This document shows positions 10,060 to 51,479 of a DNA stretch of 64,000 bases, piece by piece. The stretch spans positions 682,001 to 746,000 of the forward strand of contig NZ_JAJOZB010000001.1 in assembly GCF_023701745.1 (NCBI RefSeq), written 5' to 3'. The notes beneath the pieces are model-generated. The model was not told the origin of the DNA, searched no databases, and was given only the letters and a program-made list of their open reading frames with translations. The DNA comes from Streptomyces sp. RKAG293. Its GTDB lineage: Bacteria > Actinomycetota > Actinomycetes > Streptomycetales > Streptomycetaceae. Each line of letters starts with the position of its first letter. Position 1 is the first letter of the stretch. Both the position numbers and the translations under genes were made by a program.

Positions 10060-10467
<408 letters not shown>

Positions 10468-12957: not shown

Positions 12958-12960
12958 TAG

Positions 12961-14042: not shown

Positions 14043-14125
14043 GCTACGCCGGTGGGAGTCCAGGCCTCCCAGAAGGGAGGACGCCGGTTGTGGCGCCGCC
14101 CTGGTGGCTGACGGACGATGAGGGG

Positions 14126-14434
14126 ATGGACATGCGAGAGTTCCTCGTCGAGATCACCACCACCGTCCCTGAGGGCACCAGCCAGGACGAGGTCGACCGG
14201 CGGCGCGCCGCCGAGGCCGTCCACGCCCGGGAACTGGCCGCCACCGGCAACCTGGCGCGGCTGTGGCGCCCGGTCGGCGAGCTGCGCAGCATCGGAATCT
14301 GGCGGGCCGCCGACGAGGACGAGCTCCACGAGAAGGTGCTCGGCACACTCCCCCTGCACCCGTGGATGACGTTCACCGTCACCGCGCTGGAGCCCCACCC
14401 CAACGACCCGGGCCGAACCGACGCCACCCGGTGA
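14126..14434 (+). CDS. Muconolactone delta-isomerase-like protein
   Basis: 102 residues. MREFLVEITTTVPEGTSQDEVDRRRAAEA is the ferredoxin-like N-terminus of the muconolactone isomerase (MIase) family; LARLWRPVGELRSIGIWRAADEDELHEKVLGTLPLHPWM contains the conserved W-R-P..GIWRA..EL.....LPL.PWM block. Authentic members convert muconolactone to 3-oxoadipate enol-lactone in the beta-ketoadipate pathway, but stand-alone copies beside LysR genes usually have no tested role. GAGGGG precedes the ATG; an alternative ATG lies at 14132. It diverges from the LysR gene, which likely controls it. Confidence 0.85.
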   Translation: MDMREFLVEITTTVPEGTSQDEVDRRRAAEAVHARELAATGNLARLWRPVGELRSIGIWRAADEDELHEKVLGTLPLHPWMTFTVTALEPHPNDPGRTDATR

Positions 14435-14581
14435 CCCCCGTGGCTCGGGTGCCGCCACGCGGTGCATCGGCGAGCGGCACAACCTGGTGATGGTGCGACA
14501 TGCCTCCCAGGTAAGTCCGTCCGCAGCGGCGAATCCACCCCGGACCCGGGCAGACTCGGTGGGTGAGGGAGCGCAGCGGCG

Positions 14582-14626
14582 GCCGGAGGGCCGCTCTCGC
14601 CCCTGATGCCAGGCCGGCCCTCCGGC
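14582..14626 (+). other. Leader hairpin upstream of GPP34 gene
   Basis: A perfect 12-bp inverted repeat (14582-14593 and 14615-14626, arm GCCGGAGGGCCG, 21-nt loop) ends 47 bp before the start codon at 14674. It may be a terminator for the plus-strand gene at 14126 or a structured leader. Confidence 0.45.
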
Positions 14627-14673
14627 ACCGTACCGCCGCCGAAGCCACCGATGCTTCTGATGTGGAGTCCGTC

Positions 14674-15279
14674 ATGACCACTCCGCGGGACCTGTTGATC
14701 ATCACCATGGACGTCGCGTCCAGCCGTCCCGTCGAGCAGGGCGAACTGTCGCTGGCGCTCGCGGGAGCCGAACTGATCGACCTCGTCGACGCCGAGGTCC
14801 TCACCTTGGACGGCGAGCGCATCCTGCCCGGCCCACAGCGGACTCCGGGTGATCGCCTGTTGGACGAGGCGGCCTCGTCCATCACCCGCCAGGAGCCGTA
14901 CGAGACCGTCGAGGACTGGCTGTGGCGCCGGGGCCGTGGCCTGGCCACGACCTACCGCGCCGTTCTGGAGGCCGAAGGCGATGCGGCCCGGCCGCGCCAC
15001 CACTGGATTCCCCTCAGGACCGGCCCGGCGGCACTGACCGACTCACCCGCCCGTCGCCACGCAGCCGAGCGCTGGGCGTCGGGCGAGCCCGTCCTCGCCG
15101 GCCTCGCGGCGGCCGTGGGCATCCAGGACAAGCCGACCGAGGAGATCGCCGACCTCACCGATGACGCGGTCGTGACCGTGCTGGCCGCCGTCCACGGCGC
15201 CGCGACGGAGCTGGAAGGCGTACGGCAGCGGCGGCGCATCGAAGATGCGGCCTTCGACAACATCTGGCGCGGCCAGTGA
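14674..15279 (+). CDS. GPP34 (Golgi phosphoprotein 3-fold) protein
   Basis: 201 residues of the GPP34 family, which is strongly expanded in Streptomyces. DLLIITMDVASSRPV, LSLALAGAELIDLVDAEVLTLDGERI and ALTDSPARRHAAERWASGEPVLAGLAAAVG follow the family pattern of an alpha-helical bundle that in eukaryotes binds phosphatidylinositol 4-phosphate. The bacterial role is unknown; membrane-lipid association is inferred from the fold. The start is set by ATG with GGAG nine bases upstream. It converges on the TetR gene at 15340. Confidence 0.85.
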   Translation: MTTPRDLLIITMDVASSRPVEQGELSLALAGAELIDLVDAEVLTLDGERILPGPQRTPGDRLLDEAASSITRQEPYETVEDWLWRRGRGLATTYRAVLEAEGDAARPRHHWIPLRTGPAALTDSPARRHAAERWASGEPVLAGLAAAVGIQDKPTEEIADLTDDAVVTVLAAVHGAATELEGVRQRRRIEDAAFDNIWRGQ

Positions 15280-15302
15280 CGACGTCACGGGCGGACAGCG
15301 AG

Positions 15303-15313
15303 CCCCCCCCCCC
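15303..15313 (+). repeat. Run of 11 cytosines
   Basis: An uninterrupted C11 tract in the convergent GPP34/TetR intergenic region. It is a slippage-prone site and a place where read errors are likely. Confidence 0.9.
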
Positions 15314-15339
15314 GACGCCGAGCCCTCCGGCCCCCGGCG

Positions 15340-15960
15340 TCAGATGCCGGCCACGGCCTCCCGCGGCGGGCGGGCACCGAGCAGGGCCAGGCAGTTCGCC
15401 CACAGAGGGCCGAGCCGGTGGGTGTTGTTGTAGAGCTTCGCGAACAGCACCTGCCCCTCGAGCTGGGCGACCACCGACCGTGCGGCTTCCCGGGTGTCGA
15501 TCACGGTGACCTCCTTGCGCTCGAGAGCCTCGGCGATGACCGCGGCGACCATCCCGACCTGAGCGTCGAAGATCTCCTGCAGTCGCTCGCGGACGGCCTC
15601 GGTCTGGTTGCTCATCTCCAGAGTGAGATTGCCGAACAGGCAGCCCGACACGGTGCCGCAGCTCTGCTGCCCGGCGAGCTGGCCGGCCGCCGTCTCCTCG
15701 AAGAGCCGGCGCAGCCGCTGCAGCGGTTCCGCTGCACTGTTCAGGATGCGCGTCCAGGTCGCCTGCTGGCCGGCCCAGTGCTCGTCGAGCACGGCCAGGG
15801 CGAGCGCTTCCTTGGATGCGAAGAAGTAGTAGAAGCTGCCCTTCGGCACCCCGGCCGCCTTGCAGATCTCGGCCACGCCCAAGGCCGAGTAACCGCGCAG
15901 CTCGATGAGCGATTGCGCGGCACTGAGGATCTTCTCCCTGGCGTCGCTGGTCCGTCCCAT
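15340..15960 (-). CDS. TetR/AcrR-family repressor
   Basis: 206 residues: an N-terminal TetR helix-turn-helix (REKILSAAQSLIELRGYSALGVAEICKAAGVPKGSFYYFFASKEALALAVL) and an alpha-helical effector domain containing CGTVSGCLFGNLTLEMSNQTEAVRERL, a pattern of the YxaF/LmrA-like branch. The ATG is directly preceded, six bases away, by TACACT, a good -10 element, which predicts a leaderless transcript; the CGACCGGTCG operator lies just upstream of that -10. The same operator precedes the SDR gene at 11631, so this protein probably represses both itself and that operon. Confidence 0.92.
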   Translation of the reverse strand: MGRTSDAREKILSAAQSLIELRGYSALGVAEICKAAGVPKGSFYYFFASKEALALAVLDEHWAGQQATWTRILNSAAEPLQRLRRLFEETAAGQLAGQQSCGTVSGCLFGNLTLEMSNQTEAVRERLQEIFDAQVGMVAAVIAEALERKEVTVIDTREAARSVVAQLEGQVLFAKLYNNTHRLGPLWANCLALLGARPPREAVAGI

Positions 15961-15972
15961 GAAGCGAGTGTA

Positions 15973-16010
15973 CGACCGGTCGACTATCTCCGACTGGACC
16001 GGTCGGCTAC
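15973..16010 (-). promoter_or_regulatory. TetR autoregulatory operator
   Basis: CGACCGGTCGACTAT at 15973-15987, identical to 11681-11695, followed by a second related word GGACCGGTCGGCTA at 15997-16010. It lies in the promoter of the TetR gene. The palindromic core is CGACCGGTCG. Confidence 0.75.
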
Positions 16011-16036
16011 GCGGGCTCGTCCGCGCGCGGCGCTCC

Positions 16037-16135
16037 GACCAACAGACGATCTACCGCTGGTGGCCCTCCAAGGCCCACGTCCTCCTGGAGGCGCTCGCGG
16101 TGCAGGCCGACCTGTACGTCACGAACACCCCTGAT
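16037..16135 (+). pseudogene. Remnant of a TetR-type DNA-binding domain
   Basis: A short open stretch encodes QTIYRWWPSKAHVLLEALAV, which is the recognition helix and following helix of a TetR/AcrR regulator (normally xxTIYRRWPSKAxLxxxAL). No start, first helices or effector domain are present. It is a decayed fragment next to an intact but unrelated TetR gene. Confidence 0.7.
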
Positions 16136-16154
16136 CAGCGCCGGGGCCAGATGA

Positions 16155-16451
16155 TCAGGCCGGCCCGTGGACGACGAGCCGATTCTGCTCTCCGTCGAAG
16201 ATGCCGGCCAGGATCTCGGCCTCCCGCTGGTTCCCGTCGAAGAGACCTTGCTGATCGACGTGCACGATCAGAGTGTCGTGGCTGTCGATCACCTCAGAGA
16301 TGCCCCGACTGTTGATCGTGTCCGACCACGCGTCCAGGTTGCGGCCGAACCACGTCGGCAGCCCGCACGGCTCGCTCACCGCGTCCCAGAAGTCGTCAAG
16401 GGTCGCGATCAGCCGACCGCGCAGGTCAACGATCAGCTCATTGCTCGTCAT
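16155..16451 (-). CDS. Barstar-family protein
   Basis: 98 residues with the barstar pattern: IVDLRGRLIATLDDFWDAVSEPCGLPTWFGRNLDAWSDTI, in which the helix-loop 'LP..FGRNLDAWSD' is the barnase-blocking segment, then a strand (DTLIVHVDQQ) and a helix. Barstar proteins inhibit secreted or injected ribonucleases. No barnase-like gene is adjacent, so it is an orphan immunity or regulatory gene. TAGTCT at 16458-16463 lies six bases before the ATG, indicating a leaderless message. Confidence 0.88.
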   Translation of the reverse strand: MTSNELIVDLRGRLIATLDDFWDAVSEPCGLPTWFGRNLDAWSDTINSRGISEVIDSHDTLIVHVDQQGLFDGNQREAEILAGIFDGEQNRLVVHGPA

Positions 16452-16504
16452 CGCAGCAGACTAACCAGCCCCGCCACGCTTCACCGACCGATCAAGGAGA
16501 GGCT

Positions 16505-16837
16505 CTAGTCACCGATGAACCACAGATAGCTGCCCGGTGTTGCCGCACACACCGCGAGCAGCTCCGCGAGATCCTGCAGGGCGGCTCTCTGCGGTCCGTC
16601 CGCGCACTGCGGCAACAGGGCGGCGACCTCGCGGAGCGCGACCTCCGCCTCCTGCTCGTTGAACAGCGTGTCGCCGTAGGGGTCCACCCGGGCGAGCTTG
16701 CCCGGGCCCGTCGGGTCGTACGGGTCCAGCGCCCGTGCCAGCGCTTCGCCGTGCTCGTGGGACCGTCGAAGAAGGGTGGTCGTGGATGATCTGCCCCGCG
16801 CAGGCCGCCGGGAGTGCAGTTCCAACTCGATTCCCAT
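16505..16837 (-). CDS. Conserved-looking hypothetical protein, 110 residues
   Basis: Not recognised. The ATG at 16837 has AGGGGGC seven bases upstream. The sequence begins MGIELELHSRRP, is soluble and mostly helical (EQEAEVALREVAALLPQ, AALQDLAELLAVCAATPG) and ends in WFIGD. Proteins of this look often sit beside small toxin-immunity type genes in Streptomyces; here its downstream neighbour on the same strand is the barstar gene, 53 bp away. An in-frame GTG at 16855 is a weaker start. A role in immunity is only suggested by position. Confidence 0.65.
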   Translation of the reverse strand: MGIELELHSRRPARGRSSTTTLLRRSHEHGEALARALDPYDPTGPGKLARVDPYGDTLFNEQEAEVALREVAALLPQCADGPQRAALQDLAELLAVCAATPGSYLWFIGD

Positions 16838-16972
16838 GATCGCCCCCTGAACCACAACGTGCCGAGTGACGAAGGCCGTTCCCCGGCCGACGGCCAGAAT
16901 ACCGCCGGCACCGTCACCGGCCGCCCGTTGTCCCGCAGGTGACGGCGGACGGTTCGGCGGATCCCGGCTCCT

Positions 16973-18870
16973 TCAGCTCTCCGCGAGCACGATCACCCAG
17001 TCGTCCCGCGTGAAGCGCACGGGTTGTCGCTTGTCGGGGTTGATCCGAACCCCGTACGTCGGCCCCGTGGCGGCCTGCGCGCGCAGCCGGTACCCGAGGG
17101 CGCATTCATGGCGGCGGAGTGCTGAGGCGACGACGGTGGCGAACGTGACCCCCTCCCCCGCCCGGACGTAGTCGCCCGCGGGCTTGAGGTAGAGCTCGTT
17201 CCCCTCCGCCCTGAACAGTTCGTCGAAGAGGTCGGCCAGGTAGGGGCTCTCCGAGATCTGCGTCATCAGGAGGCTGATGAGGCGCCCGCTGACGATGAAG
17301 TCGGCGCCCGCACGCACCGGCGCGAGCAGCCGGTTGCGGTCGTCGGACATCTCGGTGGTGAGGGGGATCTCCTGGTGGGTGGCTTCCTCGATCGCTCTCA
17401 GATGCAGCAGCGTGACCAGCGTCCTGTCGTCCGCCTCCGGGGCCCGGGTGGTGACGAAGGGGGGCGGGGACGCGTGCCCCGTGTCTCCGATGACGATGAC
17501 GCTGTCGTACGAGAGCACGTCCAACCGCCCCAGCACGCGCGGGTCCGTGGTGTCCGCGCTGTGGAACGTCACATCGAGGTGCTGCGGCGCATCTGCCATG
17601 TCATGGATGCCGTCGAGCGCCGGTTCGTCTCCGAGTGCCACCACGTCGAGTCTGGTCGGGGCGGCCAGATAGAGGGCGAGTTGATCGAGGATGAGGGGAC
17701 CGCGACGGTTCCAGCCGAGCATGAGGAGCCGCTGTGGGGTGGGTGGCCGGGGGCTGGCCGTGACGATCGCTTCCTCGTCGATGCAGTTGGTTGCGTCCGC
17801 CACGACGGCTGTGTCGTCGTCCTGTGCGATGACGATGATCCGGTCGCTCGCGGTGATGGTCGTGCCGGGGTTCGGGTTGAGTGCGATGCCGTCGGCGCGC
17901 AGCAGTCCGACCACCGAGGAGTGGGAGAAGGCGAGCAGGGCCTCGCCGAAGGTGCGTCCGACCAGTGCGGGAGCGACCACGGTGTAGAACTCGTCCCCCG
18001 CGAAGTCGAGGAGTTCCTCGTAGACGAGGGAGAGTCCGGGCTGGCGGGCGGTCTGGACGACGAGGCGGGCGATGATGTCGTCGATGGCCAGCACCCGTCC
18101 GCGCGGTCCGGCGGCCAGCGTGGCGGTGAGGTGGTTGTGGGCGTCGTGGACCGCGGCGACCACGATGGCGTCGCCGGTCTCCGGTGTGAGCGCGTTGAGG
18201 GCGAGCAGGGTCTTCACGACGTGGGCGTCGCAGTCGTCCCCGTCGGGCGGCAGCACCAGGATGGCCTTCGCGGTCTGCGGACTGACCCTGGCCAGAACCG
18301 CCGGGTCGGTGGTGCAGCCGTTGCGGCAGACGATGTTGGTGGTGCCGGTGGCGCGGAGGCGGGCGCCGATCTCCTCCTCCATCTCCGCCTTGTCCTTGGC
18401 GGCGAGGACGGTCACGGTGGATCGGCGCTGGTTGGTGTTGGCCGTCACCAGTTCCGCGATCACGGAGAACACGGGATCGGACCAGCCCAGTACGACGGTG
18501 TGCCGCGCTTCGAGTACCGCGGAGTGGCCCATGCGGAGCTCCAGGATGCGTTGGTTGATCCCCGTGGTGATCAGACTGACCAACGCCGACACGAACAGCA
18601 GAGCGACCAGCGCCAGCAGGATGGACGCCAGTACGTACAGAGGGGATCCGACCGCCCCGCCGATCTTCAGCGTCTGCCCGACGCTGACCCATACGGCCTC
18701 GAGCCGGCCGGAGAACGTACTCGGGGCCGGCGATCGGTCCACACCAGCACCACGCTCACCGGGACGACCGCGCCGAAGCAGGCGAGCGTGAGCCAGCCGA
18801 TGAGTGCGGGAGTGCTGCGTGACACCAGATTGTCGAACCGGTACTGCAAACGCCGCCACAGCGACGCCAT
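16973..18870 (-). pseudogene. CASTOR/POLLUX-like ion channel protein, frameshifted near the N-terminus
   Basis: The full-length protein would be about 630 residues: MASLWRRLQYRFDNLVSRS and a first membrane helix (LIGWLTLACFGAVVPVSVVLV) in one frame, then, in another frame, SPAPSTFSGRLEAVWVSVGQ, a second helix (YVLASILLALVALLFVSALVSLI) and long RCK-like domains (TVVLGWSDPVFSVIAELV, LLMLGWNRRGPLILDQLALYL). The frame changes at about 18735-18750 as if one base were lost near TGGACCGATCGCC. GLGW-type Rossmann motifs and 'NQRILELRMGHSAVLEARHTVVLGWSD' match the DUF1012/CASTOR-POLLUX family of potassium-type channels. Either a recent frameshift or a read error. Confidence 0.8.
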
Positions 18871-24695: not shown

Positions 24696-25718
24696 TCAGT
24701 ACTGCTCGGTCTCCTGGAACCCGGTGTTCCCGTCGTCATCGGCGCTGAAGGCGTCCGCCGCGGCGGTCGGGTCGAATCCGGGCGGGCTGTCCCTGAGGGT
24801 CAGGCCCATGCCGGCCAGCTTCATCTTGACCTCGACGATCGACTTCCCGCCGAAGTTGCGGATGTCCAGCAGGTCCGCCTCGGAACGCGCCGTGAGCTCG
24901 CCCACCGAGTGGACGCCCTCGCGCTTGAGACAGTTGTACGAACGGACGGTGAGATCGAGCTCCTCGATCGGCAGCGCCAGATCGGCGGCCAGGGCCGCAA
25001 CCGTCGGGGACGGGCCCATGTCGATGCCCTCGGCGTCGGCATTGAGCTCGCTGGCCAGACCGAACAGCTCGACCAGGGTCTTGCCGGCCGACGCCAGGGC
25101 GTCACGCGGCAGCACCGCCTGCTTGGTCTCGATGTCGACGATCAGCTTGTCGAAGTCGGTGCGCTGCTCGACACGGGTCGCCTCCACCGTGCAGGTGGCC
25201 TTGAGCACCGGGCTGTAGATGGAGTCGACCGGGATGCGGCCGATCTCCTGGCCCTGCTGCTTGTTCTGGACGGCGGAGACGTAGCCGCGACCGCGCTCGA
25301 CGGTGAGTTCCACCTCCAGCTTGCCCTGGGCGTTCAGGGTGGCCAGAACCAGGTCGGGGTTGTGCACCGTGACACCGGCCGGCGGCGTGATGTCGGCGGC
25401 GGTCACGACACCGGGGCCCTGCTTGCGCAGGTACATCACCACCGGCTCGTCCTCCTCCGAGGACACCACGAGCTGCTTGATGTTCAGGACGATGTCGGTC
25501 ACGTCCTCCTTGACGCCCGGCACGGTGGTGAACTCGTGCAGAACGCCATCGATGCGGATGCTGGTGACAGCGGCACCGGGGATCGACGACAACAGCGCCC
25601 GGCGCAGCGAGTTCCCCAGGGTGTAGCCGAATCCCGGCTCCAGCGGTTCGATGACGAACCGTGAACGCCACACCTCGACGACCTCTTCGGTCAACGACGG
25701 ACGCTGAGCGATCAGCAC
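24696..25718 (-). CDS. rpoA: RNA polymerase alpha subunit, second copy outside the ribosomal operon
   Basis: 340 residues with the complete alpha architecture: N-terminal domain ([63 protein letters not shown]) and C-terminal DNA/activator-binding domain ([41 protein letters not shown]), then an acidic tail ending ETEQY. Dimerisation and beta-binding (NSLRR) and UP-element residues (RSYNC, NFGGKS) are kept. The housekeeping Streptomyces rpoA lies between rpsD and rplQ; none of those genes is here, so this is a paralogue. It differs at several positions from what I remember of the usual sequence (e.g. [33 protein letters not shown]). GTG start with GGAGG nine bases upstream; own terminator. 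Confidence 0.95.
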
Positions 25719-25932
25719 AGGAAAAATCCTCCATACTCCGGCGCCCCGACGCGGCGCCACCACCCGTGACTTTACTGGCGTCTGGCCTCCACCGAGCCGC
25801 GCCGTGCTGGCGTCGGCGGCTCCGACAGGTTTATCCCGCTTCTTCCGGCCAGCCGCTCGGGCCGGCCGGCCGGAAGCGACCGCTGGCCAACGCCCGTATC
25901 CGGACCGGCCGCGGAAGGGTCTCGGAGCTCGA

Positions 25933-42254: not shown

Positions 42255-43544
42255 TCAGACGTGTTCGGGAACGATGCGGTGCAGGCCCTTGCGGTCGTAG
42301 TAGCCGGTCATAGCGAACCCGAAGGCCAGAGCCGCGATCGAGCCGACCGCGATCATGATCCACGCACGCGTGAGACCGGCGTCGGCCTGGGCCCCGAAGT
42401 ACATGATCGCCCGTACACCGTCGGCGAGTTGCCGCATGGGTTCGAACTCGGACAGCACGCGGTAGAAGCTGGGCAGCGCCTGCAGCGGAATGGTGGCGCC
42501 CGAGGACGGCAGGGCCAGCGCGATGAACACGAACATGCTGATCAGCTGGCCGATCCCGCCGAAGGCGGCGAGCAGCGCCTGGACCCCGAGCCCGACCGCG
42601 GCGGTCGCGCAGAACGAGAAGACCCACAGCAGCGGCAGATGGGACGCGTCCATACCCAGGATCACCACGGTCGCCAGCATGATCAGACTCGAGGTCAGCG
42701 CGGAGAGCCCCAGCGACATCACACACGTGACGATGAACGTCCGGGTCCGGGTGATCGGCACGGTGGGCCGCTGGGTGCGCACCGGCCCCAGCTCGCTGGC
42801 CGCGTAGCCGAGGGCGACGTCCACGCCGTTGCTGATCACGCTCGCCCCGAGGAACCCGGACAGGACCAGGAGCAGGGTGTAGTAGAACGCGGTCAGACCG
42901 AGACCGCTGTGCGAGCCGATGGCATGCCCGACGGAGACCTTGACCGTCACGGGGTCCTGCAGGAGAAGCCGTTCGGCGTTGGTCATCGCGCCGCCCCCAG
43001 GGCGCTGCCGCTCGATGAGCGAAGCGCCGAGCTGCGCCGATGCCGCGTGTGCCGTCTGCTGGGAGATGGAACTCGCCAGCGAGGAGGCCAGGCTGCCCGC
43101 CCCCGGGTTGGTCAGCACCGACATCGTCGGCCGCACCGGCTGCTGCCCGGTCGGCGCCCCCAGCGCGCCGACGGCCGCGGTGAAGCCGTCCGGCACCTCC
43201 AGGACGCCGTAGAGCTTCCCGGAGGCGAGCCCGTCCCGGGCGGCCCCCGCGTCGAGCTGCCGCCACGACGCCTGCTGCTGTGACGTGGCCGATGCGGCGA
43301 TGCCGTCGGTGACCTGCCGGCCCAGGTTCATCGGCTGCCCCGCCACCACGGCGCCCCGGTCGGCGTTGACCAGGCCGATCGGCATGTGGTGCAGACTGCC
43401 GTTGGGGTTGAGGATGCCGCCCATGTAGACCAGGGAGAGCAGCAGGGCGACCAGCCCGATGATGGTCGCCGGGAAGGCCCAGATCTTGGGATTTCCCACG
43501 ACCTGCCGCACGGTCGCGCCGGTGATGCGCTGGTTCGCTGGCAT
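42255..43544 (-). CDS. DUF3533/YhgE-Pip-like membrane protein (ABC-2-type permease fold)
   Basis: 429 residues. One N-terminal helix (WAFPATIIGLVALLLSLVYMG), a large external segment of about 150 residues, then five to six helices (AFYYTLLLVLSGFLGASVI, IVTCVMSLGLSALTSSLIML, LLWVFSFCATAAVGLGVQALL, AWIMIAVGSIAALAFGFAM). This is the layout of DUF3533/YhgE proteins, related to ABC-2 permeases, which take part in export or envelope functions. GGAGAG precedes the ATG. It follows the carrier-protein gene cluster on the same strand (160 bp gap) and could export its product. Confidence 0.82.
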   Translation of the reverse strand: MPANQRITGATVRQVVGNPKIWAFPATIIGLVALLLSLVYMGGILNPNGSLHHMPIGLVNADRGAVVAGQPMNLGRQVTDGIAASATSQQQASWRQLDAGAARDGLASGKLYGVLEVPDGFTAAVGALGAPTGQQPVRPTMSVLTNPGAGSLASSLASSISQQTAHAASAQLGASLIERQRPGGGAMTNAERLLLQDPVTVKVSVGHAIGSHSGLGLTAFYYTLLLVLSGFLGASVISNGVDVALGYAASELGPVRTQRPTVPITRTRTFIVTCVMSLGLSALTSSLIMLATVVILGMDASHLPLLWVFSFCATAAVGLGVQALLAAFGGIGQLISMFVFIALALPSSGATIPLQALPSFYRVLSEFEPMRQLADGVRAIMYFGAQADAGLTRAWIMIAVGSIAALAFGFAMTGYYDRKGLHRIVPEHV

Positions 43545-43703: not shown

Positions 43704-44747
43704 TCACAACCTGGTCGTCACCGCCTCGAGACCGCCCTCCTGGAGCAGTTGCCACATATGACGGCGGCGCAGCTTGCCGCTGGTGGTGCGCTTGAGCAGA
43801 CCGCGGCGGCCGGCGACGAGGGTGAGGGCGGGCTCGGGGCCGAGTTCGGCCCGCAGCATGTCGGTCACCTTCTCCGTCCAGGGGCCGGGGGCGGCCTCCA
43901 CGAAGACGGCGACACCGGCCCGGCCGCGATCGTTGAGGGCCACCAGCGCCGCGCGGTCCCGGTCCAGCCCGGCCGCCGCGGCGACCTTCGCGTCGAGGTC
44001 GTCGACGTAGACGCTGCGCCCGCGCAGTTTCAGGCTGTCGCCCATCCTGCCCAGGACGAAGAGCTGGCCGTCGTGCAGGAATCCGGCGTCCGCGGTGCGG
44101 AGTTCACCGTCGACGAAGCGGGTGGCGTCCGGACCGCCCTCCCGCCCCGCGTGGTAGCCCGGCGCCACCGAGGCGCCGGACACGGCGATCTCCCCGAGAT
44201 GGCCCGCCGGGACGGGGTCGCCGTCCGCGTCGACGATGCGGACGGCGACCCCGTCCCCCTCCTGGGGAAAGCCATGGCCGACCAGCCAGCCGGAGCCCGG
44301 CTCGACCGCCGCGTCGGCCAGCCGGGCGGTGTCCTCGACGGTCACCGCCCGGCCGATCCGCAGCGCCGCCCAGTCGGGGCGCACGATCAGGAGCGGCGCC
44401 GCGCCGCCCGTCACCGCGAGCGTGTTCTCCGCCAGACCGTAGGACGGCACATACGCGTCAGCGGAGAACCCGGCCGGCGCGGCGAACCGGGCGAACGCGG
44501 AGAGCGCCGCCGGGTCGACCGCCTCGGCGCCGACGCAGACGCTGCGCCAGCCGGACAGGTCCAGCTCGTCCAGCCGCCGCGGCCGGACCCGCCGGGCCGC
44601 GTAGGCGAACGCGAACGACGGCGCCGCCGAGTGCGCCGCCCGGCCGGGCGCGAAGCAGGCCAGCCAGCGGGCCGGATCCCGGATGAACTGGTCCGGGCGC
44701 ATCACCGTCGTTCCGCCTCGGGCCGGGGGCGCCGCAGGGCCGGTCAC
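43704..44747 (-). CDS. Acyl-AMP ligase (FadD32/FAAL-like), N-terminal half missing
   Basis: 347 residues from a GTG that overlaps the previous stop (GTGA). After about 15 unrelated residues the sequence enters a fatty acyl-AMP ligase in the middle: PDQFIRDPARWLACF, YGLAENTLAV (A5), LRTADAGFLHDGQLFVLGRMGD (A7/A8) and TTSGKLRRRHMW with the A10 lysine. Relatives are 570-600 residues and carry an N-terminal P-loop YTSGST..PKG, which is absent here. The frame is open and coupled to the operon. It would be inactive alone, unless the missing half is supplied in trans. It normally adenylates a fatty acid for transfer to a carrier protein. Confidence 0.82.
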   Translation of the reverse strand: MTGPAAPPARGGTTVMRPDQFIRDPARWLACFAPGRAAHSAAPSFAFAYAARRVRPRRLDELDLSGWRSVCVGAEAVDPAALSAFARFAAPAGFSADAYVPSYGLAENTLAVTGGAAPLLIVRPDWAALRIGRAVTVEDTARLADAAVEPGSGWLVGHGFPQEGDGVAVRIVDADGDPVPAGHLGEIAVSGASVAPGYHAGREGGPDATRFVDGELRTADAGFLHDGQLFVLGRMGDSLKLRGRSVYVDDLDAKVAAAAGLDRDRAALVALNDRGRAGVAVFVEAAPGPWTEKVTDMLRAELGPEPALTLVAGRRGLLKRTTSGKLRRRHMWQLLQEGGLEAVTTRL

Positions 44748-45340
44748 GGCGTGCCCTCCGCGACGGGCGGATCCTCGAAGGGCAGGTCGGGGCCGCTCAG
44801 GAAGGTGATGCGTTCGCCGTACTCCGCGAGGGTCTTCGCGTAGACCTCCTCGTCGGCCGCCGTGAAGCGGGCCAGGGTCGAGTCGATGTACTCCTGGCCG
44901 TACCGGCCCGCCATCTCCTCCAGGGCGTCCCTGACGTACTTCACATGCCAGCGCTCGTCCTCCATGATCGTCTCGATGGTCTGCCGGACCCTCGGATGGG
45001 TGTCCCCGGCCCGCAGATGGCGGCGGTACTGGGCGATCACCCGCTTCTCGAAGACCTGGGTGACCGCCATGACCTCCATGAGGTTGGCGGGCAGACCGAC
45101 GGCCTCCAGATACTGGTCCTGGTAGCTGCCGGACAACTTCGTCGCCGGGTGACCCAGGTCCTCGATGCAACGGGTCCAGTACTTCGCGTGGTTGGCCTCG
45201 TCGGCGAAGTGGTGGGTCACGTTCGCCTGGAGCGGGCCGCCGCGCAGGGTGCGGGCGACCCGGCCGAAGAACAGGGCGCCGTTGATCTCGGACGAGCGGT
45301 AGTAGCTCAGCAGCCACAGGTCGTTCTCGGAAAGGGTCAC
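44744..45340 (-). CDS. Ferritin-like diiron protein
   Basis: 198 residues, GTG start overlapping the previous stop by GTGA. Four-helix-bundle iron ligands are visible: Glu18 (SSEINGALFF), Glu48-x-x-His51 (DEANHAKYW), Glu98 (QVFEKRVIAQY) and Glu129-x-x-His132 (EDERWHVKYV), i.e. the E, ExxH, E, ExxH set of diiron oxidases/oxygenases. Together with the AurF-like enzyme it gives the cluster two separate O2-activating enzymes. Diiron proteins of this shape oxidise amines or hydrazines in some natural product pathways; the reaction here is an inference. Confidence 0.85.
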   Translation of the reverse strand: MTLSENDLWLLSYYRSSEINGALFFGRVARTLRGGPLQANVTHHFADEANHAKYWTRCIEDLGHPATKLSGSYQDQYLEAVGLPANLMEVMAVTQVFEKRVIAQYRRHLRAGDTHPRVRQTIETIMEDERWHVKYVRDALEEMAGRYGQEYIDSTLARFTAADEEVYAKTLAEYGERITFLSGPDLPFEDPPVAEGTP

Positions 45341-46440
45341 GGTGTCTCCTCGGGCCGGCGGCCCCACTTCGAGGCGACCAGCCGGGTGCAGGTGGCCCCG
45401 GTCAGCGCGTACGGATCGGGGGCCGCGTACGCGGGCCAGGCCGCGCGCAGCGCTTCGTTGCGGAACGTCTTCGGCAGATAGAGCTGGGCGGCGAACGGTG
45501 AGACCGACGCGAGTGACTGATGGAGCGGCCCGGCGCGCAGCCCGGTGGCGGCGTGCAGCAGGTCGTCGAAGCTCTCCCGGTCGCAGGGGACGGGCCGGAT
45601 CAGGCCCCGCCGCCGGAATCCCGCGTCGCGTTCGAAGACGCTGAAGGCGAGGTCGACGAGCTCGCCGAGGATCGGCGTTTGAGCCGGGTCGGGGCAGACG
45701 TGGTAAACGCCGTCGGCGACTGCGGGATCGAGCAGGCGGGTGACCGCCGAGACGGTGAAGGCGGCCGTCGCGAGGGAGAGCGGTGTCTTCTCGTCCCCCG
45801 GCAGCAGCGACAGCAGTCCGTAGTGGAAGAGCTTGAGCGTGTTGTGGAAGACGTTGTACTGCGTGACGTGCCCGCTGTCGTCGTCGGCGATGACCGTGGG
45901 CAGCCGCAGTACGGAGACCGGCATCTCCCCTGCCGCACGCAGGAGTTGTTCCTCGGCCGCCCATTTCGACCACTCGTAGTGGTTGACGAAGCCGGCGTCC
46001 GGGAGCCGCTCCTCCGCGATGTCGCCCTGATGCTCGCCTGCGGCGTACAGCGTGGACAGCAGGGCGAATCGCCTCAGGTTCTCGCACCGTGCGGCGAAGG
46101 CCCGCAGCCGACCGGTGCCCGCCACGTTGACGTCGTCGGCGATGTCGCGCTCGACGTTGAAGCGGGTGACGGCCGCCCCGTGGACGATGCGGGTGACCGC
46201 ACCCGGATCGACGTCGGTCAGCAGGGTGTCGTGGCGGACGTCCGCCACCACACACCGGGTCCGTCCTGCGGCGTCCGGTCCCAGCTCGTCCGCCAGCCGC
46301 TGCCGTTTCCCGTCGAGTTCGGTTGCGGAGGCGGCACGGACGGCCAGAATCAGGTCATCGTCCCCGTCGTCGAGCAGTGCTGCGGCAAGCCGGCGTCCCA
46401 GGTAGCCGTCCGCGCCGGTGATGAGCGTGGTTCCCCTCAC
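45337..46440 (-). CDS. Extended SDR, thioester-reductase-like
   Basis: 367 residues, GTG start overlapping the upstream stop. TLITGADGYLGRRLAAALL is the NADP motif, VVADVRHDTLL follows, FALLSTLYAAGEH is the Thr/Ser strand, and VNHYEWSKWAAEEQL has the catalytic Tyr and Lys (YxxxK). The combination with IVHGAAVTRFNVERDIADDVNVAGTGRL matches fatty-acyl reductase/terminal thioester-reductase proteins rather than sugar epimerases. It would reduce a carrier-bound thioester to an aldehyde or alcohol and so release the product. Confidence 0.82.
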   Translation of the reverse strand: MRGTTLITGADGYLGRRLAAALLDDGDDDLILAVRAASATELDGKRQRLADELGPDAAGRTRCVVADVRHDTLLTDVDPGAVTRIVHGAAVTRFNVERDIADDVNVAGTGRLRAFAARCENLRRFALLSTLYAAGEHQGDIAEERLPDAGFVNHYEWSKWAAEEQLLRAAGEMPVSVLRLPTVIADDDSGHVTQYNVFHNTLKLFHYGLLSLLPGDEKTPLSLATAAFTVSAVTRLLDPAVADGVYHVCPDPAQTPILGELVDLAFSVFERDAGFRRRGLIRPVPCDRESFDDLLHAATGLRAGPLHQSLASVSPFAAQLYLPKTFRNEALRAAWPAYAAPDPYALTGATCTRLVASKWGRRPEETP

Positions 46441-47372
46441 GCCGCGCCTCCCCGCAGCTTCGCCAGGACCGTCGTCGCCGCGTCCTCCAGGACGGGCCAC
46501 GAAGCCGGGTCGAGGCCGTGGCGGTCGGTGAGGGCGAACAGCCAGCGTTCGAGGCCGAAGGCCGCGCAGCAGCTGTCGGCGGCCCGGCCGTCGCGGGTCA
46601 GGCCGAAGCCGGACCCGAAGTGGTCGTGGTGCCGGTTGACCGAGGCGATGGCCAGGTCACCGCCGTACGTCGCCTCGTACTTCACCGGCTGGACGCGCTG
46701 CAGGAGATGGCGCGGGTTGTCCTCGGGCCGGAAGAACGGGTCGGTCGCCGGGAGCCACTCCAGGTCCAGGTCGATCAGCCCGAAGAACAGGTCGAGGGCG
46801 GTCCGGGCCTCGTCGAGGAAAGTGACCGTCTCGGCGGCGGTGCCGACGCAGACGATCTCCCGCATCGTGAAGCTGCTCAGCCGCCGCAGCGGCACGTAGT
46901 GCGTCTCCTGACGGAAACAGGTGTTACGGGTCGTCAGGTACAGGGCCTGGTCGAGTACTTCGCCCTGATGACCGCTGTAGAGGTGGTAGCAGGCCGCCGG
47001 GGTCAGGACCTCGGTGACCGGTGAGAGCCCGGACAGCGCGACCCGGCCGTCCGCATCCAGGACGGGGCCGGCGAGGAAGGCGTCGATGTTCGGCTCCTCG
47101 GGGCTCAGCCGGGCCACGAAGGTCGCCTGGTGCGGGAAGGAGCGGAGGTAGCCGACCTGCTGCAGCCGCTCCGCGGGCAGCGATGCGGGATGCCGCTCCT
47201 CCTCCGCGTTCCAGAGGGAGGCGAGCCGTACGAAGGCGCGGTCGCAGTCCTCGGCGAGCCGCAACAGCGGGCCGCGCAGGGCCGCCTGCCCGGACGGCTG
47301 CCAGGAAAGGCCGATTCGGTGCAGAGCGGCGAACCGGTCGGGGCCGGCCGCGCTCGCTGTCGCGCGCGTCAC
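46437..47372 (-). CDS. Amino acid:[carrier protein] ligase (class II tRNA-synthetase-like)
   Basis: 311 residues from a GTG overlapping the ACP stop. The fold is that of atypical seryl-tRNA-synthetase homologues (BLL0957 type), which lack the tRNA-binding arm and charge carrier proteins. Motif 2-like LTTRNTCFRQETHYVPLRRLSSFTMREIVCVG supplies a zinc Cys and Glu, and ADSCCAAFGLERWLFAL holds the third zinc ligand Cys and the motif-3 arginine. It would activate an amino acid with ATP and attach it to the pantetheine arm of the carrier protein encoded directly before it. Specificity (Gly, Ala or other small amino acid in known cases) cannot be read. Confidence 0.88.
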   Translation of the reverse strand: MTRATASAAGPDRFAALHRIGLSWQPSGQAALRGPLLRLAEDCDRAFVRLASLWNAEEERHPASLPAERLQQVGYLRSFPHQATFVARLSPEEPNIDAFLAGPVLDADGRVALSGLSPVTEVLTPAACYHLYSGHQGEVLDQALYLTTRNTCFRQETHYVPLRRLSSFTMREIVCVGTAAETVTFLDEARTALDLFFGLIDLDLEWLPATDPFFRPEDNPRHLLQRVQPVKYEATYGGDLAIASVNRHHDHFGSGFGLTRDGRAADSCCAAFGLERWLFALTDRHGLDPASWPVLEDAATTVLAKLRGGAA

Positions 47373-47629
47373 GGCGCCACCCCCGCTCCGCCGAACCGGT
47401 CCACCATCGTGTGGATGTCACGGAAGTCCCCGGGCCGCAGGTCCTCCACCTCGATCGGTGCGGCGCGCAGCCGTTCCAGGAGCAGCAGGAGTTCCGGCAG
47501 GTGCACGGACCTCAGATGCCGCTCCTCGAACAGGGGCGTCCGGTCGGTCAGGCCGTCGGCGGACAGGTCGGGGGCCTTGGTGAGGACCCAGGACCTGAGC
47601 CGGTTCCGGATCTCCTGGTCAGAAAGCAT
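47369..47629 (-). CDS. Acyl/aminoacyl carrier protein
   Basis: 86 residues. A short helical protein with the pantetheine-attachment serine at residue 41 in RHLRSVHLPELLLLLERL, equivalent to the DSL motif. The replacement of the usual Asp before Ser by Arg is atypical and resembles carrier proteins paired with amino acid ligases. ATG 47629 has GGAG seven bases upstream and overlaps the AurF-like gene by 11 bp; its own stop overlaps the ligase start. The partner of the ligase, KAS III-like protein and reductase. Confidence 0.85.
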   Translation of the reverse strand: MLSDQEIRNRLRSWVLTKAPDLSADGLTDRTPLFEERHLRSVHLPELLLLLERLRAAPIEVEDLRPGDFRDIHTMVDRFGGAGVAP

Positions 47630-48533
47630 CGGCCGGCTCCTTGTCGAGAATCCCCGCCTCGGTGAGGAAGGCCAGGACCCTCGTCGACACCGCACGCCGG
47701 TGAGCGCGCTGCGCCGGTGCGGACCAGGCCTGCTCGGCGACCTCCCAGGGATCGTCGAGCCCCGCGTCGGCGTAGACGTCGGGGTTGTAGTACTCGCGCC
47801 AGCTGACGACGAAGAACTGCTCCAGCTGACGGCGCAGGTCGGCCACCGTGTCATCGCCCCACGAAGGGACGCAGGCCTCCCACAACGCGGTGACCAGCTG
47901 GCGGCCGAAGACCAGGTGCCGCGATTCCTCGACGTGATGGTTGTCGTTGATGAACCGCGACACCGGGTGCAGCCGGGCGTCCCGGGCCTGGACCCAGTTG
48001 TAGCGGTCCACGATCTCCTCGAAGATCATGGTCTTGGCGAAGAAGAGGAAGTCCTCGACGCTCTGCGAACGAGTCTCCTCCAGCGCGAACTGGCGGCTCC
48101 GGTACACCTTCGCGTACCGGGTGCAGAAGCCGCCGAAGTAGATGCTGTGCTTGTTCTCCTCGTCGAGGAAGTGGTGCAGATACTCCGAGACGTCCACCAG
48201 GTCCTTGCGGTACAGCCGCTGCGCCAGGCCCTGCATCAGGCCCTTCTCGCCGTGGATGTTGAGGCTGTAGAAGTTGACGGCCTCATGAAAGGCCAGCCGC
48301 CGCCTGGCGGGCTCGTCGAGCGCGTCCCACAACGGGGTGCCGTACAGGCTCACGTACTCGGGTGAGCTGAACCAGTCCTCCTCGGGCCGGACCTCCTCCG
48401 GCCACTGCCGCAGCGTGATGTAGGGGTTCTGGTAGGAGCGCTTCGAGAGATGGCTGAGCCTGCTCACGGTGTCACCGAGCGAGGCGATGGCCTCCGCGAG
48501 CCGGGGCTTCGGAGCATTCGCTGTACTACTCAC
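47619..48533 (-). CDS. AurF-like diiron oxygenase
   Basis: 304 residues, GTG start with TGAGGAC upstream. The diiron ligands of the p-aminobenzoate N-oxygenase family are in place: Glu96 (NIHGEKGL), DEENKH around 124-129, FEEIVDRYNW (172-173) and His199-Glu203-His206 in HHVEESRHLVFGR, the H-x3-E-x2-H signature of AurF. AurF oxidises an arylamine to hydroxylamine and nitro. Its position immediately before the carrier protein suggests N-oxidation of a carrier-bound amine. Confidence 0.88.
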   Translation of the reverse strand: MSSTANAPKPRLAEAIASLGDTVSRLSHLSKRSYQNPYITLRQWPEEVRPEEDWFSSPEYVSLYGTPLWDALDEPARRRLAFHEAVNFYSLNIHGEKGLMQGLAQRLYRKDLVDVSEYLHHFLDEENKHSIYFGGFCTRYAKVYRSRQFALEETRSQSVEDFLFFAKTMIFEEIVDRYNWVQARDARLHPVSRFINDNHHVEESRHLVFGRQLVTALWEACVPSWGDDTVADLRRQLEQFFVVSWREYYNPDVYADAGLDDPWEVAEQAWSAPAQRAHRRAVSTRVLAFLTEAGILDKEPADAF

Positions 48534-48600
48534 ACTGTCCTCATCTGACGTGTCGTGTCGGTTCGCGTACCGGCGGCAGGCGGTCGGGGCGGATCCGCCC

Positions 48601-48660
48601 GGACGCCGGGGACGCGGACGCCGGGGACGCGGACGCAGCGAGCGCGGACGCTGCGGCCGC
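48601..48660 (-). repeat. 15-bp tandem array, 4 units
   Basis: Units of 15 bp at 48601, 48616, 48631 and 48646 (GGACGCCGGGGACGC twice, then GGACGCAGCGAGCGC and GGACGCTGCGGCCGC) in the 142-bp gap between the KAS III-like and AurF-like genes. Confidence 0.85.
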
Positions 48661-48675
48661 GGGCGCTCGTCCGGA

Positions 48676-49647
48676 TCACGCGGCGAAGGACTCGGTGGCC
48701 TGCAGGATCACGCACTGCCAGTTCAGGCCGAATCCGGCCATCACGAGCGCGACGTACTGACCGGGCCGCAGCCGGCCGGAAGCGATCAGTTCCGCGAGGT
48801 TGATGATGTTGTCGGCGGAGATGACGTGCCCCACGTCCCGCATGGACGAGAAGAAGACCTTCCCGGCGTCCACCCCGAGCAGCCGGGCCAGGATCTGCCA
48901 GGCCTTGTCGTTGGTGTTCTGGGTGACGACCCAGTCGAGGTCCGCGGCCGACAGCCCGGCCCGGGTCAGGGTCTCGCGCACCAGCCGGTGGGTGTACGCG
49001 AAGTACATGCCGACCGTTTCGTCGTCATCCGCCTGCCCGAGGCCGCCGTTGGTGATCTGGTGTGCCGTCACCAGGCGGAACGCGGCGGGTTCCCGGCTGA
49101 CGACACAGGCCGCCGCGCCGTCGGAGATGAGGTTGTAGGCCTGCTCGTACCGGGCTCCCGCCGGGAAGCGGTCGGCCGTCACGCACAGCACCCGCTCCCA
49201 GTCCTCCTCGGCCCGGAGCATCGCCCCGGCCAGCCGCAGGGAGCCCAGCATCGCCGTGCACGCCTGCTGGTTGAGCCCGATGACGACGGCCTTCCCGAGC
49301 CCGAAGTCAGCCTGCAGCCGGCCGGCGGGAAAGTCCATGAGGTGCTTCACGTCCCGGCTGCGCTCCCACGCCGCCGGGTCTCCGGCGTTGCCGTTGCCGG
49401 GCAGGCACGTCGCGTAGACGATCGCGTCCACGTCGCCCAGCCGGCCGGAGTCGGCCAGCTGCGCGGTGACGTCCCTGGCCAGGTCGTAGGCGCTGGTCGT
49501 CGGCTCACAGACGTGGTGCCAGCGGAAGCCGGCCGACTCCAGGTCCTGCGCCGAGGACATCAGGTGCCCCGCGGCCCCGGTCTCGCTGACATGGGCTTTG
49601 CGTTCGCCCAGTGTGTGGACGAACGAGTCGACGAATACGTCGGTCAC
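48676..49647 (-). CDS. Beta-ketoacyl-ACP synthase III-like enzyme (CerJ/DpsC-type active site)
   Basis: 323 residues, GTG start with GGGAGAG upstream. Thiolase-fold blocks include DAIVYATCLP and the active-site cysteine Cys130 in GLNQQACTAMLG. The usual KAS III HQAN histidine is replaced (VTQNTNDKAW), and a His274-x4-Asp279 motif (GHVISADN) appears instead. This Cys-His-Asp set is known from KAS III homologues that act as acyltransferases or unusual starters (CerJ, DpsC). First gene of the coupled carrier-protein operon; it could acylate an amine or join an acyl group with the carrier-bound amino acid. Confidence 0.85.
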   Translation of the reverse strand: MTDVFVDSFVHTLGERKAHVSETGAAGHLMSSAQDLESAGFRWHHVCEPTTSAYDLARDVTAQLADSGRLGDVDAIVYATCLPGNGNAGDPAAWERSRDVKHLMDFPAGRLQADFGLGKAVVIGLNQQACTAMLGSLRLAGAMLRAEEDWERVLCVTADRFPAGARYEQAYNLISDGAAACVVSREPAAFRLVTAHQITNGGLGQADDDETVGMYFAYTHRLVRETLTRAGLSAADLDWVVTQNTNDKAWQILARLLGVDAGKVFFSSMRDVGHVISADNIINLAELIASGRLRPGQYVALVMAGFGLNWQCVILQATESFAA

Positions 49648-49955: not shown

Positions 49956-51479
49956 TCATGGGCAGCGCACGGCCACCAGGGCCATCCGGCAGGCGAGTTG
50001 GTGCCGGTCGTCGTCGAGCATGCTGCCGGTGAGCGTCTCGATGCGGCGCAGCCGGTTGAGCACGGTGTTGCGATGGCAGTGCAGCTCGTCCGCGGCCCTG
50101 GCCGCCGAGCAGCCGCCGCGGAACCAGGCGTCCAGTGTCGCGAGCAGCAGGTCCCGCTCCTCCTGAGGGCAGTCGAGCAGTCTGCCGAACGTGTGGCGGG
50201 CCAGCCGCTGGGCGACGTGCGGGCTGGTCACCACGAGGGCCTCCAGCAGGTGGTCGTCGAAGGCCGCGACGCCTTCCGTTGCCGCCGGCAGGGTCTGCAG
50301 GGCGGTCTCGGCGCAGTGGTAAGCAGTGGCGATGTCGGAGAGGCTGTCGACCTCGCAGGAGATGCCCACCCGCCGGCCCACGCCGGCCGAGAGAGCTTCG
50401 ACCAGCCGCCCCAGCGAGGTGCTGCCCAGTTCCAGCAGTCCGATGTGCCGGTCGGTACGCCTGCGCCAGACGGCCAGCACCGCGTGGGAGGGCAGGGCAT
50501 GACGCAGCGCGCGCGGCGTCCCGCTCCCGAAGCCGTCGGCGTCGTGCTCCCCGCTCGGCACCGTCCCGTCGGCCATGGCGATCACGACGAACCGGCCGCG
50601 CGCCGGAAGGCCGAGAGTCACCTGCGCCTCGGCGGCGACCACCGGCTCGACGCCGCGGCCCTCGATCAGCGCGTCGATCACCGTCTCACGGCGTTCGGTG
50701 CTGCGGCGCTGGGCGTCGGCCTCCGCCACGCGGTGCCCCTCGACGAAGGCCTGCGAGTAGCTGTCGAGCGCGTCCCACACGGGGCCGCTCTCGTCGAGGA
50801 GCCGCTGCAGCACCTCCGGGGACAGCGCCCGGGCCTCGTCGAACAGCTTCTCCCAGAGCAGTTGGGTGGCCAGCCGGTGGACGCGGAGCAGGGATTCGAC
50901 CGACACGCCTTCCTGGGCGCGGTAGTGTCCCCACGCCATCGGGACGGCCAGTGGGTTGCTGTCGGCGGGCGGCTTGCCCGCGAGGATCCGCAGGAAGCCG
51001 AGGACGTTCTCGTGGAGGGAACGGCGTATTTCGGACCCTGGTACGAGCTCCAGATGCCGCACTCCCCTGCCCACGGTCAGTTCCATGAGCTCTTCGACGA
51101 GGTGGGGAAGCTGTCTCAGCAGGCCCTCGGCGAGGCCGCGCACCACCGGGGTGGGGCCGCCGCTCCTGTCCCCGTGCGGCGAGGGGAGCCGCAGTATTTC
51201 CCCGTGCCCTCCGGCCGGGGTGGAGCCTTGGACGGGGCTCTGAACTGCACTCTGAGCGGTGCTCCGGGCGGAGGTGAAATCCGCGTCGACCGCCGGATGG
51301 GCGCGGCCCGGTAACTCCGCCGGCCGGCCGTCGCGGGTCCTGCCCGGCGGTCCCGCCGGGATCCGGACTTCCGGGGAGGCGGACGCCTCCTGCGCGGCCG
51401 TCTCCCGCAAGCCGGGATACGACCTGTGCCCCACGTGCTGCTTCCCCACGGACGCGGTACCCCTGGTGGACATCGACAT
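49956..51479 (-). CDS. PucR/CdaR-family transcriptional regulator
   Basis: 507 residues from ATG 51479 with GGAGGGG upstream. After an unusual low-complexity N-terminus of about 130 residues, the body shows a sensory region (HLVEELMELTVGRGVRHLEL, NPLAVPMAWGHYRAQEGVSVESLLRVHRLATQ), a GGDEF-like central domain and the C-terminal HTH_30 of PucR proteins (LLATLDAWFRGGCSAARAADELHCHRNTVLNRLRRIE). It lies directly upstream of the KAS III/ACP operon on the same strand and is the most likely pathway regulator. Confidence 0.85.
   Translation of the reverse strand: MSMSTRGTASVGKQHVGHRSYPGLRETAAQEASASPEVRIPAGPPGRTRDGRPAELPGRAHPAVDADFTSARSTAQSAVQSPVQGSTPAGGHGEILRLPSPHGDRSGGPTPVVRGLAEGLLRQLPHLVEELMELTVGRGVRHLELVPGSEIRRSLHENVLGFLRILAGKPPADSNPLAVPMAWGHYRAQEGVSVESLLRVHRLATQLLWEKLFDEARALSPEVLQRLLDESGPVWDALDSYSQAFVEGHRVAEADAQRRSTERRETVIDALIEGRGVEPVVAAEAQVTLGLPARGRFVVIAMADGTVPSGEHDADGFGSGTPRALRHALPSHAVLAVWRRRTDRHIGLLELGSTSLGRLVEALSAGVGRRVGISCEVDSLSDIATAYHCAETALQTLPAATEGVAAFDDHLLEALVVTSPHVAQRLARHTFGRLLDCPQEERDLLLATLDAWFRGGCSAARAADELHCHRNTVLNRLRRIETLTGSMLDDDRHQLACRMALVAVRCP

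Follow-up and report, generated by a model that had tools for sequence, protein, structure and literature searches.

Among the closest described relatives of the locus analyzed here are the glycine-derived nitronate pathways of enteromycin carboxamide and akazaoxime/A-76356, in which, according to PMC9967187, a carrier-held amino acid undergoes N-oxidation by a diiron enzyme. For enteromycin carboxamide, that paper, citing He & Ryan 2021, describes the oxidation of carrier-bound glycine by a diiron oxygenase and its O-methylation to a nitronate ester; the title of He & Ryan 2021, as cited there, also names denitrification. Genes for carrier loading and an AurF-family diiron oxygenase occur together in Streptomyces sp. 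RKAG293, in a window of 64,000 nucleotides that corresponds to C1:682001–746000 of its own genome (contig NZ_JAJOZB010000001.1; 9.27 Mb in 3 contigs, with a tool estimate of 100% completeness). We propose, with a probability of roughly 55%, that a widespread and apparently undescribed cassette for making a small N-oxidized lipid is present at this locus in recently truncated form. Whereas the nitronate pathways load their amino acid through the adenylation and peptidyl carrier domains (A-PCP) of a nonribosomal peptide synthetase (NRPS), as far as PMC9967187 describes them, the cassette has a stand-alone ligase resembling class II aminoacyl-tRNA synthetases (aaRS). Instead of an O-methyltransferase and NRPS/polyketide synthase (PKS) genes, it has a ketoacyl-synthase III-like enzyme (KASIII), a thioester reductase (TR), a ferritin-like diiron protein (FLD), an acyl-AMP ligase and an ICMT-like methyltransferase.

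Other described systems resemble the cassette in part. For althiomycin (alb/alm), the AurF-type protein Alb2 is proposed to oxidize a carrier-bound amino group to an oxime, followed by O-methylation; unlike the cassette, this is an NRPS-PKS assembly line, for which the accessible part of PMC3445576 describes no aaRS-like ligase, KASIII or fatty acyl-AMP ligase (FAAL). In the fragin/valdiazen (ham) and azoxy (vlm/ady) systems described in PMC9379638 and PMC11705231, lipid and amino acid components likewise occur with a ferritin-like protein or a diiron N-oxygenase, but no cupin, VlmO-type or transaminase family was found among the cassette proteins scanned. Nocuolin A was considered and set aside as a different set, comprising FAAL/acyl carrier protein (ACP), aminotransferase, acyl-ACP reductase, CylC/AurF-like, NRPS and PKS genes according to PMC5333925. 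In agreement with an earlier sequence-only reading of the window, which recognized no described pathway with exactly this set, our literature search found none, although most subscription papers lay outside its reach, so one may exist.

The gene run in the window and its deletion

All genes listed by the sequence-only reading lie in one operon-like minus-strand run from window position 49647 to 43704, and the gene calls are backed by family matches, codon bias and open reading frame (ORF) structure. In order of transcription, a PucR-type regulator is followed by the KASIII-like enzyme (48676–49647, 323 aa), the AurF homologue (47619–48533, 304 aa), a stand-alone carrier protein (CP; 47369–47629, 86 aa), the aaRS-like amino acid:[carrier protein] ligase (46437–47372, 311 aa), a TR-like short-chain dehydrogenase/reductase (SDR; 45337–46440, 367 aa), the FLD (44744–45340, 198 aa), an acyl-AMP ligase remnant (43704–44747, 347 aa) and a DUF3533 membrane protein. 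From the AurF gene through the remnant, the coordinates show an overlap between stop codon and next start at each gene boundary, which indicates an operon-like arrangement. The set is conserved elsewhere, and because the gene order is kept in 55 of 80 fetched loci, the grouping is not due to chance.

The nearest relative of the window cluster is that of Streptomyces fildesensis INACH3013 (97% identity for AurF). Loci from four species of the genus (L019–L022, the same places as L044–L047, with L021 = L046 and L020 = L047) carry the same run, with 83–99% identity to the window from KASIII to FLD. Between FLD and ligase, these loci encode a fusion of phosphopantetheinyl transferase and ACP (PPTase-ACP), an MMPL transporter and an ICMT-like methyltransferase, followed by the N-terminal part of the ligase; the gene calls for MMPL in L021/L046 and for the ligase in L020/L047 are incomplete or in two pieces. 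The corresponding Pfam matches in L019 were ACPS (4.4e-11), PP-binding (2.3e-9), MMPL (2.6e-86), ICMT (1.2e-5) and AMP-binding (4.2e-52), the last over a ligase of 573 aa.

Comparison of the window with L019 by blastn showed collinearity on both flanks and a break at 44703/44704, where L019 position 7815 is joined to 3120, leaving 4,694 bases of L019 (3121–7814, about 4.69 kb) without counterpart in the window. The junction has a 2-bp match and keeps the frame open. The resulting fusion ORF, on the minus strand like its neighbors, consists of the first 15 PPTase-ACP codons and then the ligase from MRPDQF onward, retaining residues 238–573 of the intact ligase at a 93% match (AMP-binding 2.7e-13, above cut-off) and lacking the ATP-binding FTSGSTGRPRG stretch at residue 176. 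What had been read as a partial acyl-AMP ligase is thus a deletion scar: the C-terminal part of the ligase is indeed present, but as an in-frame PPTase-ACP/FAAL fusion, and a probable pseudogene. The seven minus-strand genes are all there without forming a complete cluster, since three other genes of the intact form are missing and the ligase itself has lost about two fifths of its length. A DNA search of the strain's own genome with the missing segment found no close second copy, giving 18 matches at 63–94% identity, none longer than 528 bases, the best being 66% over 528 bases. Protein searches of the same genome gave one weak PPTase match and three nearly full-length acyl-AMP ligase relatives.

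Distribution of the intact cassette and its amino acid module

Genome contigs were scanned with a profile of the AurF alignment, and the best 80 of 106 relatives were kept; the scan required conserved AurF peptides and is therefore biased toward this AurF type. These loci comprise 55 with KASIII and ligase (KASIII-type), 17 defined by a match to nitronate monooxygenase (NMO-type) and 8 others, among them L081, L084, L102, L104, L115 and L123; in L081 and L084, a contig end probably truncates a cluster of the KASIII type. At E ≤ 1e-5, KASIII, AurF and ligase were present in all 55 KASIII-type loci, CP and TR in 53 each, FLD in 43, ACP in 42, FAAL-like proteins in 37, ICMT in 36, PPTase in 35 and MMPL in 15. 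Direct adjacency was the rule for KASIII-AurF (53/55), AurF-CP (53/53), CP-ligase (52/53) and ligase-TR (49/53). TR was present in all 43 FLD-bearing loci and directly adjacent to FLD in 27 of them, and 19 loci had a match to the PPTase-ACP query between the two.

The members include Streptomyces, Streptantibioticus, Mycobacterium simulans, Catellatospora, Micromonospora, Nocardia and others, together with contigs of metagenome-assembled genomes (MAGs) labeled Obscuribacterales, Omnitrophota, Nitrospirae, Acidobacteria, Bdellovibrionota and Proteobacteria, and the GC content of the 55 loci ranges from 0.40 to 0.73. The cassette is nevertheless rare: a KASIII profile at E ≤ 1e-60 matched 1 of 396 phylum-sample genomes, the window's own, and 11 of 394 family-sample genomes, 8 of these 11 from the genus, and the ligase was found at at least 59% identity in 8 of 35 genomes of the genus. 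A minimal five-gene form, KASIII-AurF-CP-ligase-TR, occurs at L057 (9006–14149) and in related Catellatospora, Hamadaea and Allorhizocola loci; in L057, a DUF3419 protein (6.8e-51) comes next. L024 contains two nearly identical ferritin-like genes (3596–4147 and 10408–10974), one beside TR and one after the ligase; L025 also has two, and P450- and PKS-like genes were recognized by eye at the cluster edge.

The AurF homologue (Pfam AurF E = 3.4e-35, above cut-off) retains E84, E126, H129, E172, H199, E203 and H206 in all 81 aligned sequences, one from the window and one from each of the 80 loci; from their numbering and spacing, we take these seven positions to be the AurF metal ligands. Oxidation of nitrogen, as suggested from the sequence, is reasonable for such a homologue. 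In the AurF tree, a single clade (support 0.93) held the 81 sequences and left out 18 further PF11583 proteins from the genus, sampled as every third of 55 found; within it, the NMO-type clade had support of 0.98 and the KASIII-type clade, which also holds L081, L084, L095 and L096, 0.85. Among the 18 comparison proteins, 8 lack the ligand residues E84, E172 and H199, so that, judging from these residues, some members of PF11583 may lack the two-iron binding of AurF. All 35 genomes of the genus have a high-scoring PF11583 member and 32 also a low-scoring one (42–63 bits), and a divergent pair of PF11583 genes at G000:C1:5959566–5961489 is found in other genomes of the genus as well.

The ligase profile matched Bll0957 (3mey) at E = 8.3e-52, and C128, E156 and C269 were present in 73 of 73 sequences (56 KASIII-type including the window, 17 NMO-type), a Cys/Glu/Cys pattern that is presumably the zinc site. 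The NCBIfam model NF005479 (8.1e-39) scored 133 bits against a curated cut-off of 357, which marks the enzyme as a relative rather than a member of the same subfamily. Homology to Bll0957 (3mey and further entries) extends over the catalytic domain and includes the Cys/Glu/Cys pattern, whereas the genomic setting, with AurF, KASIII and TR, is unlike the liposaccharide-type neighborhood noted in PMC2922099. The adjacent CP gave no Pfam match; it was assigned by its position beside AurF and by Ser41 (in LRSVHLPEL), which is conserved in at least 95% of 52 sequences. Together with the AurF-CP and CP-ligase adjacencies, the Bll0957 match supports the earlier suggestion that an amino acid is loaded onto the carrier.

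Of the 80 loci, only L084 and L096 gave no ligase match, and the AurF-CP-ligase module was found in three settings: with KASIII and TR, with NMO, and before a large NRPS-like protein. This variety argues that AurF acts on a CP-bound amino acid. The last setting is that of L095 from Polyangium sp. y55x31 (9986–18161), where inspection by eye shows a methyltransferase-like protein and the large NRPS-like protein after the module and no KASIII or TR match was found. In the 17 NMO-type loci, an NMO-type gene accompanies AurF and ligase (Pfam NMO 3e-27 in the one tested), and its presence in this second group points to a nitro or nitronate product of AurF; none of the 55 KASIII-type loci gave an NMO match. 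The group would fit the "denitrification" in the title of He & Ryan 2021 as cited in PMC9967187, and may be the branch in which glycine nitronate is denitrified, or else may supply nitrite for N–N bonds. In Streptomyces scabiei 87.22, for example, the NMO-type locus (L105, 8953–17611) encodes a protein without Pfam match, AurF, CP, the aminoacyl:CP ligase, NMO, an alpha/beta hydrolase and an aminotransferase that carries a fused reductase-like domain; proteins resembling ACP and PPTase were also recognized there by eye. A relative of its Pfam-less protein is found in 16 of the 17 NMO-type loci.

Proposed pathway and competing readings

In the pathway that we propose for the intact cassette, the fatty acyl-AMP ligase would load a fatty acid onto the ACP, activated by its fused PPTase, while the aaRS-like ligase would place a small amino acid, most likely glycine by analogy with the nitronate pathways, onto the stand-alone CP. 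The AurF homologue would then oxidize the CP-bound amine, probably to the nitronate or nitro level. The NMO-bearing loci, taken together with the published conversion of carrier-bound glycine to a nitronate, suggest an N-oxidized aminoacyl carrier at this stage, probably glycine nitronate. KASIII would take up the acyl group on Cys130 and join it to the CP-bound N-oxidized amino acid, after which the SDR would reduce the thioester and release the chain. Tailoring may fall to the diiron protein, which resembles aldehyde-deformylating oxygenase (ADO), and to the ICMT-like methyltransferase, nitronate being a candidate substrate of the latter, and the MMPL pump would export it. Reductive release, already suggested from the sequence, agrees with the TR motifs (G9xxG12xxG15 and Y155xxxK159) and family matches (NAD_binding_4 4.4e-27, above cut-off; TIGR01746 3.6e-21, below the curated cut-off).

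The bond made by KASIII is where the proposal meets its main rival. The enzyme (Pfam ACP_syn_III_C 1.4e-17, above cut-off; model pLDDT 93.2) has the fold of ChlB3, FabH and DpsC and shares their active cysteine, as it does that of CerJ. The Cys-His-Asp site read earlier is present as Cys130, His274 and Asp279, but in 56 of 56 sequences, including the window, the positions of the FabH His and Asn (in the HQAN and GNTS motifs of the reference 4ryb) hold Gln243 and His274, with Cys130 kept and Asp279 invariant, an arrangement that presumably differs from the CerJ-type Cys-His-Asp. The His and Asn of FabH serve malonyl decarboxylation; their absence throughout fits an enzyme that does not decarboxylate malonyl units and, judging from these residues, probably uses another nucleophile. 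We tentatively put forward a third fate of CP-bound glycine nitronate besides O-methylation and denitrification, in which the nitronate carbon would attack the KASIII-held fatty acyl group, and TR and, where present, ADO-like loss of the glycine carboxyl could yield 2-nitro-3-oxo or 1-nitro-2-oxo lipids in many bacterial phyla. Such C-acylation could dispense with the decarboxylation residues because a nitroacetyl thioester would be acidic enough.

Alternatively, AurF may deliver an N-hydroxy-aminoacyl-CP on which KASIII acts as an N- or O-acyltransferase of the CerJ/ChlB type, with TR releasing a hydroxamate-type N-acyl amino aldehyde or alcohol, a reading that we regard as possible without favoring it. 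The acyltransferase ChlB3 heads the Foldseek matches of the KASIII model (thiolase-like fold, E down to 1.5e-24, TM about 0.8), sequence searches also matched CerJ and DpsC, and the missing His/Asn pair with the invariant Cys130, His274 and Asp279 is compatible with acyl transfer. The FabHs, however, score about equally by Foldseek, the residue pattern is presumably unlike that of CerJ-type enzymes, and AurF-family enzymes usually proceed beyond the hydroxylamine. Nitroso, nitro and nitronate are among the products of this enzyme type according to PMC12154687. Nitro, nitronate, oxime and hydroxamate outcomes may all be considered candidates.

Several observations weigh against the proposal. 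The AurF profile matched no PDB chain at E ≤ 0.01, and profile and single-sequence searches gave no relevant match (the sole PDB match, interleukin-25 at E = 0.042, was dismissed as chance), so that Pfam and the ligand spacing are the basis for relating it to AurF/CmlI. Glycine is proposed by analogy, and the oxidation level, the KASIII bond, the role of FLD and hence the product and its chemistry are what we infer from the genes. As FAAL, PPTase and MMPL belong to large families, their counts may take in enzymes of other kinds, and the non-actinomycete members are all MAG contigs, except the Polyangium locus without KASIII and TR. Ten TR-bearing KASIII-type loci have no FLD match, and eight of them, all with room on their contigs, also have none for ACP, PPTase, ICMT or FAAL, which means that these parts are not essential to the core. 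In the window itself, the six upstream genes are open and show no significant nonsynonymous rise when pooled (27 nonsynonymous to 36 synonymous changes on the window branch vs 25 to 48 on the S. fildesensis branch, p = 0.38), and the three acyl-AMP ligase relatives elsewhere in the genome, at 34–37% identity, could in principle substitute.

On this evidence, the window cluster might be read as a working, rewired pathway in which the lost acyl-loading genes are dispensable and the core draws on acyl-ACP or acyl-CoA of primary metabolism, much as the eight Catellatospora, Hamadaea and Allorhizocola loci have KASIII-AurF-CP-ligase-TR without the acyl-loading parts. We consider this unlikely. The four clusters most closely related to that of the window retain the acyl-loading genes, the pump and the ICMT-like gene went with the deletion as well, and the truncated ligase persists under relaxed constraint, with 11 nonsynonymous to 6 synonymous changes on the window branch vs 2 to 12 on that of S. 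fildesensis (Fisher p = 0.009, uncorrected, 9 genes tested). KASIII alone also differs (3 nonsynonymous to 3 synonymous vs 0 to 12; p = 0.02, uncorrected). With the acyl-loading ligase truncated and no PPTase-ACP, MMPL or ICMT-like gene left in the cluster, the pathway would be blocked at acyl supply unless other genes substitute, and the window copy is probably non-functional as it stands.

The FLD bears on a further reading, that of an azoxy or hydrazine pathway in which it would play the part of VlmB, its substrate being a hydrazine formed by the cluster. Its family matches are weak and below cut-off; six candidate metal ligands (E18, E48, H51, E98, E129 and H132) are kept in 43 of 43 sequences. 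VlmB (8wvr) is among the structural matches of its AlphaFold model (pLDDT 89.5), with a Z score of 16.5 and a root-mean-square deviation (rmsd) of 2.9 over 189 residues, and VlmB-type proteins are located in azoxy clusters according to PMC9379638 and PMC11705231. The matches to 3ez0 (Z 19.3, rmsd 2.7, 184 residues), ADO (about 18) and MiaE (about 17), however, equal or exceed this score and are nearer in length to the 198 residues of FLD (197–223 vs 318); by Foldseek alone, PaaA/PaaC chains came first, with no match below E = 0.001. No N–N-forming family was recognized among the cluster proteins scanned, including VlmO/DUF4260-type, cupin and hydrazine-synthetase families, and the only DUF4260 match of the strain's own genome lies outside the window at C1:8095363. 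This reading is therefore very doubtful, and the azoxy and hydrazine products once suggested find no specific support; the product class is probably narrower than proposed, of the nitro, nitronate, oxime or hydroxamate kind rather than N–N. In the genus, DUF4260 matched 7 of 35 genomes, and three of the matching loci (L124, L125 and L130) showed no neighborhood recognizable by eye as azoxy-type; membership of the cluster in azoxy VlmO-VlmB systems was rejected. The pairing of FLD with TR in the proposed pathway resembles the cyanobacterial pair of acyl-ACP reductase (AAR) and ADO, which also unites a reductase acting on thioesters with a diiron protein, although family matches place the cassette TR with NRPS-type SDRs rather than with AAR, and FLD-ADO sequence identity is about 10–17%.

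Finally, an assembly error hiding an intact cluster in the strain is highly improbable, for although a single assembly, the one genome of its species covered here, stands behind the deletion, that assembly has three contigs and an estimated completeness of 100%, the in-frame junction with its 2-bp match is clean, and the raised nonsynonymous change of the remnant fits a dead gene rather than a misassembly; the truncation is probably real and recent.

Flanking genes and significance

On either side of the run lie genes, also on the minus strand, that are syntenic in L019–L022. The upstream gene (49956–51479) encodes the PucR/CdaR-type regulator (HTH_30 1.3e-18), and the downstream one (42255–43544) the DUF3533/ABC-2-type membrane protein (DUF3533 3.3e-30), a possible exporter. 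Elsewhere in the window, an RNA polymerase alpha subunit gene recognized by eye (24696–25724) is a duplicate of rpoA, with a second copy at C1:5377066–5378085 that is 89% identical.

The seven-gene set of the window is a remnant, and the object of interest is the intact, widespread cassette. A search for the product in strain RKAG293 would probably be unsuccessful, and a relative with the intact cluster is preferable; compact forms such as L085, with nine genes in about 7.5 kb, or L044 of S. fildesensis, with ten genes from KASIII to the acyl-AMP ligase, are small enough for direct expression. If the proposal is true, a compact gene set in actinomycetes and, by MAG contigs, several other phyla would specify an unrecognized class of N-oxidized lipids, and three modules that are each known on their own, namely carrier loading by an aaRS-like ligase, N-oxidation on the carrier and an atypical KASIII, would be united in one pathway.

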